The notes under the pieces are model-generated. The model saw nothing but the letters and a program-made list of their open reading frames with translations, ran no database searches and was not told the DNA's origin. Shown here piece after piece: positions 17,142 to 38,749 of a stretch of DNA of 38,749 nt. Every line of letters begins with the position of its first letter. Positions within the stretch are counted from its first letter, which is position 1. Position numbers and translations under genes: made by a program. The DNA is from an uncultured Rhizobiaceae group bacterium. GTDB lineage: Bacteria > Pseudomonadota > Alphaproteobacteria > Rhizobiales > Rhizobiaceae. Where the stretch lies: contig CALFBM010000037.1 in NCBI GenBank assembly GCA_937951645.1, positions 1 through 38,749 on the forward strand, given 5' to 3'.

Positions 17142-18635
17142 TTACAGTTTTATTACATTTTCTAGCCAGTTTGCATATTCACTCAAGGCCGGATGTTTTA
17201 AGTTGCGTTGTAAATATTGCTGAATGCGTGGCAGGTGTTTCAAGTAAGCCGGTTTTCCGTCACGCTCGTTTAAGCGAATAAAGATACCCAGTATTTTTGT
17301 CGCTCTTTGCGCGGCCATGATTGAATAACTTAAGCGAAAGCTTTCTGCATCAAATGTTGGATTTCTGGCTTCTCGAAGTTTTATATAATGATCAACCAAC
17401 CCTGTTTCCAATTCTTCGCTCACGTCCACACGGGCATCTTGGGCAAGTGACGCAACATCATAAGCTGCAGGCCCAATTACCGCATCCTGAAAGTCAATAA
17501 CGCCAATACGGTCTGTTCCGGATTTTTTTTCTCGCCATAGGATATTTGGAGAATGATAATCGCGCATAACAAGACTCTGTTCTTGTTGCTGGATGATTTG
17601 TGCGTATTGTTGCCAAATTCTTAAAAATGCTTCTGCATCAGCAGCTTTTATTTCCGAGCCTGATTGAGAAGGTGCATACCATTGGAGCAGTAAATCAACC
17701 TCGATGAGTATTGCTTGTTCATCATAAGAGGGAATTACGTAGGGTTCGCCGGATTTAAGATTTATATTGGGTTTAAATTGACATTCATGAAATGCTGCAA
17801 GAAATTCCACAGCTACCATATAGCGCTCAGTAATTGGTGTTCTGTTGCCGTCAATAATTCCCTCATCACCAAAATGCTCAATTAGTAAAATGCCATTTTT
17901 CAAATCCTGGGCTTTAATCTCTGGTGCGCAAAAATGCTTTGCCCTTATTAATTCATCAATGGCTACAAAGGCTGTTACGTCTTCTGCCAGATGCGCGATT
18001 TTACTATAAGGTTTGCCACCTTTGATTGGAGAGCCATCTGGTAGGGCTGGCGCATTCATCAATAAAAGCTGTTCGTTTTCACTTGTTATGAGTTCATAAC
18101 TGCGAGTAGATGCATCCCCCATCAATGGACTACGTATTATATTTTCAAATGGGGTGGCTTCCAAAAACTCCCTGATCAAAAGACTACGTTTTATACGACT
18201 TATTAAGTCCGGGTTACCAGAAACAGAAAGCTTGCGAACAGTCTCATCTTCTTCCGAGAACTTGATATGTATCGCTTCTTGAGGTATTTCGTCAAAACAT
18301 TGTTCTGGCCATTCCATGACAGCACAGCCAGTTTCAAGGGCGTCTTCCCAGCCGAGTTCTTCAAGCTCATCCATGCCGCAGATACGGTATAAATCAAAAT
18401 GAGCAATATTCGGAGAAGTTTCATATGTTTGACAAAGTGTATAAGTGGGGCTTGGCACTTCAAAATTTTCGTCATGAGCCAAATGCCGAATAATTCCACG
18501 TGCCAAAACACTTTTACCCAAGCCAAGATTTCCAGATAGGCAAAGAAAATCGCCAGTTTTCAAAACCATTGCAATATCTTTACCCAGCCGAGCAGTCTCA
18601 AGTTCGCTGTTGGTTGTTATTAGCAAAGGTTCCAT
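17142..18635 (-). CDS. Bifunctional TsaE (tRNA t6A ATPase) / AmgK-like phosphotransferase fusion
   Basis: N-terminus: GNLGLGKSVLARGIIRHL (Walker A), SPTYTLCQTYE, HFDLYRI (TsaE). C-terminus: APH fold (VMRDYHSPNILWRE, IGVIDFQDAVIGPAAYDVASL). Confidence 0.92.
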   Translation of the reverse strand: MEPLLITTNSELETARLGKDIAMVLKTGDFLCLSGNLGLGKSVLARGIIRHLAHDENFEVPSPTYTLCQTYETSPNIAHFDLYRICGMDELEELGWEDALETGCAVMEWPEQCFDEIPQEAIHIKFSEEDETVRKLSVSGNPDLISRIKRSLLIREFLEATPFENIIRSPLMGDASTRSYELITSENEQLLLMNAPALPDGSPIKGGKPYSKIAHLAEDVTAFVAIDELIRAKHFCAPEIKAQDLKNGILLIEHFGDEGIIDGNRTPITERYMVAVEFLAAFHECQFKPNINLKSGEPYVIPSYDEQAILIEVDLLLQWYAPSQSGSEIKAADAEAFLRIWQQYAQIIQQQEQSLVMRDYHSPNILWREKKSGTDRIGVIDFQDAVIGPAAYDVASLAQDARVDVSEELETGLVDHYIKLREARNPTFDAESFRLSYSIMAAQRATKILGIFIRLNERDGKPAYLKHLPRIQQYLQRNLKHPALSEYANWLENVIKL

Positions 18636-36437: not shown

Positions 36438-37604
36438 TTAAGCGAGTGTTGCAAGTTGCTGTTGGAAGGCCCACTCAAGCCAAGGCATAAGTGCTTGCAA
36501 GTCAGAGGTTTCAACTGTGGCACCTGCCCAGATGCGTAGCCCTGATGGTGCATCGCGGTAAGATCCAATATCCAGAGCAACGTTTTCAGCTTCAAGCAAT
36601 TGAACCATGCCTTTTGCAAAAGCTGCTTGCTCATCTGCCGCAAGTGCTGCAATGCGTGGATCTGTGATTGAAAGGCATACAGATGTATTGGAGCGGGTTG
36701 CAGGATCAATTGCCAGGTTTTCAAGCCATGGCGTTTTACTTACAAAAGCATCAATCACTGCAAAGTTTTCATCCGCACGCTTTAAAAGACCTTCAAGACC
36801 ACCAATTTCTTTCGACCATTCCAGTGCATCAATATAATCTTCAACACAAAGCATGGAAGGCGTATTAATGGTGGCACCATCAAAAATACTGGTGTTTAAT
36901 TTGCCACTTTTTGTTAAACGAAAAATCTTCGGAAGCGGCCATGCAGGCGTGTAAGTCTCCAAACGCTCAACAGCGCGTGGTGACAAGATAAGCATCCCGT
37001 GTGCACCTTCACCACCAAGAACCTTCTGCCATGAGAAAGTTACAACATCGAGTTTTGGAAAGTCCAGATCCTGGGCAAATGCAGCAGAAGTTGCGTCACA
37101 AATGGTAAGACCGGCACGCTCAGCAGGGATGAAATCCGCGTTTGGAACGCGAACGCCTGAGGTGGTTCCGTTCCAGGTGAAGACAACGTCATTGTCAAAA
37201 TTGATTTCACGAAGATCAGGAAGATGGCCATAGTCTGCCCTAATCAGACGCATATTCTCAAGCTTGAGTTGTTTAACAGCGTCAGTAATCCAGCCTTCAC
37301 CAAAGCTTTCCCATGCAAGCATGTCGACGCCGCGTTCACCAAGCAGGTTCCACATGGCCATTTCAACAGCGCCAGTATCAGAAGCAGGCACAATGCCGAT
37401 GTAATAATCATCAGGCACTTGTAGAACTTCGCGTGTTAGATCAATTGCAAGTTTGAGTTTGGCTTTACCTTCCTTGGCACGGTGTGAGCGACCAAGAGAA
37501 GCATTCTTCAATTTTTCGAAAGACCATCCTGGGCGCTTTGTGCACGGACCAGAAGAAAAACGCGGATTTTCCGGCCGCGTAGCCGGGTGTTGTATCATAT
37601 TCAT
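36438..37604 (-). CDS. serC: Phosphoserine aminotransferase
   Basis: [73 protein letters not shown]. Confidence 0.95.
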
Positions 37605-37617
37605 AATGAACTAACCT

Positions 37618-37690
37618 TACAGATAGTGAGCCCCTCGTTGGGGAGGGGTGGCCCACAATCTGGGTAACTCGAAACCCCTGAAATTGTCAA
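37618..37690 (-). ncRNA. Structured 5' leader of serC, candidate serC RNA motif
   Basis: Minus strand carries hairpins CCCA-gattg-TGGG (37652-37664) and CCCCTC-cccaac-GAGGGG (37631-37648), with an upstream GGGGT able to pair alternatively with ACCCC; located directly before serC-serA in an alphaproteobacterium. Confidence 0.6.
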
Positions 37691-37754
37691 GCAGTTCCAT
37701 TAAAAAGGCCCTTTTTGCATTGCTGCATCATGTAGCTTGGAACGGGTTCTTGCA

Positions 37755-37769
37755 GAACGATGTAGGAAC
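37755..37769 (-). promoter_or_regulatory. Putative LexA (SOS) box, leftward
   Basis: GAAC-GATGTAG-GAAC, matching the alphaproteobacterial GTTC-N7-GTTC pattern on the minus strand. Confidence 0.6.
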
Positions 37770-37804
37770 ATGTGCCAAAAAGTGGCACAAATCTGACACA
37801 TCAT

Positions 37805-37819
37805 GTTCTAGTCTCGTTC
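37805..37819 (+). promoter_or_regulatory. Putative LexA (SOS) box, rightward
   Basis: GTTC-TAGTCTC-GTTC exact match to GTTC-N7-GTTC, upstream of the HTH gene. Confidence 0.65.
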
Positions 37820-37859
37820 TAAAAGAAAACGCCGCCCCATCGGTCAATGGGAACGGCGT
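37820..37859 (-). terminator. Rho-independent-like terminator on the minus strand
   Basis: ACGCCG(37829-37834)...CGGCGT(37854-37859) with inner CCCAT/ATGGG; on the minus strand followed by TTTTCTTTT. Confidence 0.6.
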
Positions 37860-37955: not shown

Positions 37956-38606
37956 ATGAGCACATTTGCTATATCGAGTAGTCTTCTAAATTCAGCATTA
38001 GTGAAACGGCAAACAACTACTGAAGATGTTCAATATCTAACTGGTGAGAAAACAGGCAAAGGGCCAACTAAAAAGCGTTCTCCTTTGAAACGCTTTTATC
38101 GAAAATATCAAAAATCCCCAGATCGTGCTGCATCTTGGATGAGGCGGCGAAGACTTGGTTCAAAGAGCATAGCCATGCCCAGCGAGATTTGTGATCTATT
38201 TACTGAGGGTGAACGTGCATCACTCAATATCATTGCAAACGTTATTAGAGAGCATGGCACTTGTGAGTGGCCTTTGGATAAGATTGCGGCGATTGCTGGT
38301 GTCTGTCGTAGAACTGTTCAAAATGCTATCGTAGCCGCTCGTGAAGCAGGATTGCTTAGTATTCAATTACGCCCTGTACGCGGACGTAAGAACCTTCCTA
38401 ATGTAATCAAGATAGTAAATGACCGCTGGCTATCATGGCTAAAGCGGATCAGATCTTCTTTTCATTTGGCTATAGGGTGCAAAACGATGCACCCCACGGG
38501 TGAACAGATATATAATAGAACTCAAATAAGTGAAAAGTCGGCACCTTTAGCATCAGTTGAGATAGCAGTTGATGGGCTTATGAAGGGGAAGAAGCCTGAT
38601 GATTGA
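37956..38606 (+). CDS. Helix-turn-helix (winged-helix, replication-protein-like) protein, probably mobile-element derived
   Basis: FTEGERASLNIIANVIREHGTCEWPLDKIAAIAGVCRRTVQNAIVAAREAGLLSIQLRPVRGRKNLPNVIKIV resembles HTH proteins seen on rhizobial accessory elements; basic N-terminal region. Confidence 0.7.
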   Translation: MSTFAISSSLLNSALVKRQTTTEDVQYLTGEKTGKGPTKKRSPLKRFYRKYQKSPDRAASWMRRRRLGSKSIAMPSEICDLFTEGERASLNIIANVIREHGTCEWPLDKIAAIAGVCRRTVQNAIVAAREAGLLSIQLRPVRGRKNLPNVIKIVNDRWLSWLKRIRSSFHLAIGCKTMHPTGEQIYNRTQISEKSAPLASVEIAVDGLMKGKKPDD

Positions 38607-38639
38607 GCAATCTAAGTTCCATTGCTCTGGGTTAGCTCC

Positions 38640-38656
38640 CCCGTCTTCGAGACGGG
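38640..38656. terminator. Hairpin downstream of the HTH gene
   Basis: CCCGTCT-TCG-AGACGGG perfect 7-bp stem; no clear T-tract, so terminator function is uncertain. Confidence 0.4.
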
Positions 38657-38685
38657 AACGCTTTAGCACAGCTTTTGATGAATGA

Positions 38686-38749
38686 TCATACTCTCCAGAA
38701 AAATGAACCACCCGAAGGGGTTTCTGGCTCATTTTTCTGGAGAGTATGA
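38686..38749. repeat. Large inverted repeat with 21-bp perfect arms ending at the window edge
   Basis: TCATACTCTCCAGAAAAATGA (38686-38706) and TCATTTTTCTGGAGAGTATGA (38729-38749), with inner ACCC-GAAG-GGGT hairpin. Confidence 0.95.

Follow-up and report, generated by a model that had tools for sequence, protein, structure and literature searches.

Altogether our analysis provides strong support for the model that the 65-bp inverted-repeat block upstream of serC is the P-arm part of the attR site of a phage-satellite-like element, integrated in the serC leader RNA. The block lies between serC and an HTH gene in the window, the whole stretch of DNA analysed here (38,749 nucleotides, all of contig C37 of an uncultured Rhizobiaceae bacterium). 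It had been taken for an SOS switch, which the inverted repeat almost certainly is not. Small phage-like elements appear to have used the serC leader for integration repeatedly across Rhizobiales and Rhodobacterales, and this use is apparently unreported; in the non-subscription literature searched we found no report of the leader as an integration target.

The insertion can be read directly from alignments. serB and serC are adjacent in six congeners, and the serC site is empty in five congeners. When the empty sites are aligned with both ends from our genome, the breakpoint falls at a 14-bp core: contig C11 matches the empty sites as far as the core, from which point the window matches them into serC. 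The core is duplicated at both ends of the element and single in the empty sites, as an attachment site should be. The breakpoint implies that all window DNA to the right of about 37654, the boxes included, belongs to the element. Our genome's own attL copy diverges just after the 14-bp core, which is why a longer core pattern missed it.

C11 carries the only integrase match in the genome. Its order is serB, the native serC promoter, the core GGGCCACCCCTCCC at 18574, a TGTG pair, the integrase, portal, protease, connector, capsid and the contig end. The integrase (PF00589, E 2.2e-25) is 68% identical to that of a related element in another genus (G019). The pair, TGTGCCA-N4-TGTGTCA at C11:18658-18675, lies at the 3' end of the integrase gene and forms the P' arm, so that TGTG pairs occur on both arms (the window's at 37783-37800). 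C11 and C37 are unjoined in the draft; because the serB/serC locus is split between them, each has a copy of the core and only one integrase match exists, we link them as the probable two ends of one element. A terminase gene was looked for and not found in this 82%-complete draft genome, so part of the element may be absent, either from the element itself or from the draft. The rest of it is absent from the window because C37 breaks at an IS200/IS605-like repeat, which begins 5 bp after the HTH gene and ends in a 25-bp hairpin (38686-38710 / 38725-38749). The original prediction had placed the remaining genes of a mobile or prophage-like element beyond the window, and the integrase and capsid-type genes on C11 bear this out. 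It had also pointed to the HTH gene, which is present as described.

Table 1. Features of the attR region in the window (C11 and C66 are other contigs of the same genome).
Feature	Position	Strand	Basis or remark
serC (host)	36438..37604	-	adjacent to serB in congeners
serC leader RNA RF00517, integration target	37606..37658	-	Rfam covariance model, 59.5 bits against a 35-bit gathering cut-off; intact at attR
att core GGGCCACCCCTCCC	37641..37654	-	second copy at C11:18574 (attL); five-congener alignment
Predicted element-borne serC promoter: TTGACA, 17-bp spacer, TTACCC	37662..37690	-	sequence; core-anchored conservation
CTRCA-type repeats (CTGCA/CTACA)	37730..37765	-	consensus of relatives; between right box and core
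"LexA-like" box 1, GTTCCTACATCGTTC	37755..37769	-	serC-proximal; P-arm repeat
Third, inverted TGTGCCA copy	37771..37777	+	part of the palindrome originally described; conserved only in part
TGTGTCAG-A-TTTGTGCCA, paired direct repeats spaced 11 bp	37783..37800	-	invariant columns; probable integrase arm-type sites, P arm
"LexA-like" box 2, GTTCTAGTCTCGTTC	37805..37819	+	element-proximal; P-arm repeat
Predicted intrinsic terminator, stem 37859-37829, then TTTTCTTTT	37820..37859	-	points out of the element, to the P arm and serC
HTH gene, first gene of the element	37956..38606	+	PHROG 15967; weakly like phage replication-initiation proteins
IS200/IS605-like repeat end	38611..38749	+	interrupts element, ends contig; 99% copy at C66:8688-8826 by a TnpA-like ORF

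What had been described in the block was a pair of opposed boxes in the arms of a large inverted repeat, with a palindrome at its centre. The boxes are where they were placed, with half-sites GAAC at 37755-37758 and 37766-37769 and GTTC at 37805-37808 and 37816-37819, and a repeat search recovered the inverted repeat (arms 37747-37772 / 37802-37827, 73% complementary). TGTGCCA (37771-37777) and TGGCACA (37783-37789) do lie between the boxes, but a direct repeat describes them better than a palindrome: the inner sequence reads TGTGTCA-N4-TGTGCCA on the minus strand (37800-37783), and a third copy beside it is inverted. In the aligned block the invariant columns are GAAC-N7-GAAC, TGTG-N-CAG-N-TTTGTG-N-CA and GTTCC...CGTTCTG, and the most strongly conserved columns are those of the TGTG direct repeat and the outer half-sites. 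Chance does not account for the four-half-site arrangement: of 397 genomes in the order, 22 contain GAACN7GAAC-N33-37-GTTCN7GTTC and 1 the reversed control pattern. A class-wide pattern search gave 0 of 385 and carries no weight here, as its distance limit shut out the window's own block and it sampled few of the relevant families. CTRCA-type repeats, roughly 10-11 bp apart in relatives, are candidate accessory or excisionase sites.

The distribution of the block is that of an attachment-site arm. A serC locus of another genus (G019) gave the first further example, spaced identically, and other families (G137 and G108) the next ones. When 84,980 genomes were scanned for the core and right box, 47 genome contigs had the block, mostly from Rhizobiales and Rhodobacterales, and in more than 40 of them serC begins about 170-200 bp further on. 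Viral contigs added six more, one of which (L176) holds a complete element and serC. The block is one end of elements of about 10 kb whose genes were assigned with Pfam and PHROG: they begin with an HTH gene (or primase and ATPase), continue with HNH, terminase, capsid, connector, protease and portal genes, and close with a tyrosine integrase. At that integrase end the start of the leader is repeated, exactly over 31 bp in G555, over 23 bp in G108 and over a shorter length in G019, so that the G555 and G108 elements are flanked by direct repeats about 10 kb apart. With Rfam the leader at attR is complete and that at attL is a half or degraded one (L104 / G555). The TGTGNCA-N4-TGTGNCA pair recurs at the 3' end of the integrase gene in complete relatives, and the TGTG pair does so in about a dozen viral contigs. 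One viral contig (L173) has P arm, serC-leader-like core, P' arm and integrase in an unbroken series, which is the attP arrangement. Some block-bearing serC loci had neither an integrase nor a packaging gene in the stretch examined. The block-bearing serC loci of L159 and L091 adjoin lysis-type genes, named from their translations, suggesting that full prophages may use the site as well.

The same P arm is found elsewhere before tRNA-like cores or near tRNA-Ser and tRNA-Thr genes, in some cases with an adjacent integrase. Arm-like blocks lie near tRNA-Ser(gct) in L103, L107 and L110 and near tRNA-Thr(ggt) in L095, L098 and L108. Blocks beside integrases with other target genes are as expected for attachment-site arm sequences, and it is with the integrase, not with serC, that the arm travels. 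Since some of the tRNA-Ser blocks have an adjacent integrase, it looks as if this integrase family has changed its targets and kept its arms.

GTTC-N7-GTTC is the LexA motif of Alphaproteobacteria (PMC3323433), as the original prediction stated, and both boxes match it exactly. Boxes of this type precede the genome's own lexA and recA, and its SOS promoters (recA, lexA and three other probable ones) read GTTC-[CT]T-AT-rich-TGTTC. The window's boxes resemble such sites in their half-site and 11-bp spacing and differ from them in their spacer, their unconserved inner half-site and their attachment-site context. In a scan with a small LexA matrix, made from five host sites (recA, lexA, comM, an imuB/dinP-like gene and one further gene, all but lexA named by reading translations), the two boxes come 17th and 26th among 67, with scores at chance level. 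Their spacers are matched or bettered by 13% and 31% of random spacers, whereas the five host SOS sites score far higher. Conservation of both boxes beside related loci was also expected of a switch; among 52 relatives, selected only on the core and right box so that the right box is fixed by the search and provides no evidence, the left box is complete, with GAAC as its inner half-site, in only 16; elsewhere that half-site is mostly GATT, GAAT or GATC. In a set selected by profile, several elements lack the right box or carry GTTT or GATC at its inner position. In the aligned block, conservation continues beyond the boxes (CGTTCTG). Random-like spacers beside those of the host boxes, together with the inconstant left half-site, leave the SOS-controlled divergent switch without support. 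We conclude from these comparisons that the resemblance to LexA boxes most likely stems from the 11-bp phasing of the repeats. Attachment-site repeats phased in this way can mimic alphaproteobacterial LexA boxes and are a trap for SOS-regulon prediction.

Boxes of the same form exist in other settings. Six genomes from one family of the order (L063-L068, at about 1501-1564) have GAACN7GAAC and GTTCN7GTTC at a different locus, most with TTGAC between the boxes; L064 and L068 adjoin CspA-like and DUF192-like genes, and these boxes look more like real SOS promoters. Our genome itself has high-scoring LexA-type boxes at C88:4639-4664, where two overlap, C126:99 and C139:19834. An EcfG-type promoter (GGAAC-N16/17-CGTT) was also considered for the block and, by eye, does not fit.

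Could LexA nonetheless bind the arm? The block might be attP-arm DNA that LexA also occupies and that DNA damage frees, coupling excision or element transcription to the SOS response. Both boxes do stay perfect in several Rhizobiales elements, but the chance-level spacers, the unconserved inner-left half-site and a sigma-70 scan that recognised no convincing promoter at the boxes make this unlikely. It is very unlikely that the elements, having integrated in the leader RNA and swapped the promoter, use host LexA bound to the attP arm to couple both excision and serC expression to DNA damage.

Prophages are often SOS-induced, and the boxes stand upstream of the element's first gene. These points, with the motif match and the boxes at the genome's own lexA and recA, favour two functional LexA boxes acting as a divergent switch for the HTH gene and serC; set against the spacers, the inner-left half-site, the conservation outside the boxes and the variant inner half-sites of other elements, they leave such a switch very improbable. 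Nor is the block simply an operator of the HTH gene, since the two adjoin in only some loci: orthologues stand beside serC in L104, L105, L102 and L077, and the block upstream of serC is conserved with or without an adjoining HTH gene, which rules that candidate out. A host regulatory region for serC unrelated to integration, such as a serine-responsive operator, would account for the strong recurrence just upstream of serC and is scarcely credible, because the block is missing from the serC of congeners, also occurs beside tRNA genes and integrases, and lies on the element side of the breakpoint in the empty-site alignment.

For the attachment-site model we envision a scenario in which the tyrosine integrase recombines a short core in the host serC leader with the attP of the element. 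The TGTGNCA pairs, which both arms have, are most likely where it binds the arms. The GAAC/GTTC boxes and CTRCA repeats belong mainly to the P arm and most likely serve an accessory or excision protein that would assemble on one face of the helix. Insertion has cut serC off from serB and the native serC promoter. The sigma-70-like sequence just before the core could then allow serC and the rebuilt leader to be transcribed; in relatives CTTGC...GTA stands directly before the core at a fixed distance in the core-anchored consensus, and transcription from the window's copy would start near the leader. As the elements bring this conserved promoter to attR, serC should stay expressed after insertion. 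The HTH gene, the first of the element, is transcribed away from serC. The predicted terminator folds at -19.7 kcal/mol (z -4.3), and a GC-rich hairpin is also present in L104 and L105. Insertions that restore their target gene are known in general; here elements would swap the promoter of an amino-acid gene while its leader RNA is rebuilt.

To our knowledge the repeat sequences of the block are unlike those of lambda. The leader in the window is a full match to RF00517 at attR, an Rfam family defined for the leader and not for a role as attachment site. Satellites that carry capsid genes are already known (PMC11389934). Like capsid-forming phage-inducible chromosomal islands (cfPICI), the complete relatives are about 10 kb long, with a tyrosine integrase and their own terminase, portal, protease, connector and capsid genes, and no tail gene was recognised among their identified genes. 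L104, for example, has an integrase and capsid and packaging genes, with no tail genes among its identified ORFs and two ORFs unassigned; our own element is seen in part. Unlike cfPICI, the elements described here are alphaproteobacterial, target the serC leader and begin with an O-like HTH gene or a primase. Lambda-type attP places Int arm sites on both arms and Xis sites on the P arm. The site described here is alike in that one type of repeat is present on either arm, helically phased repeats of another kind stand on a single arm, and the core lies between the arms.
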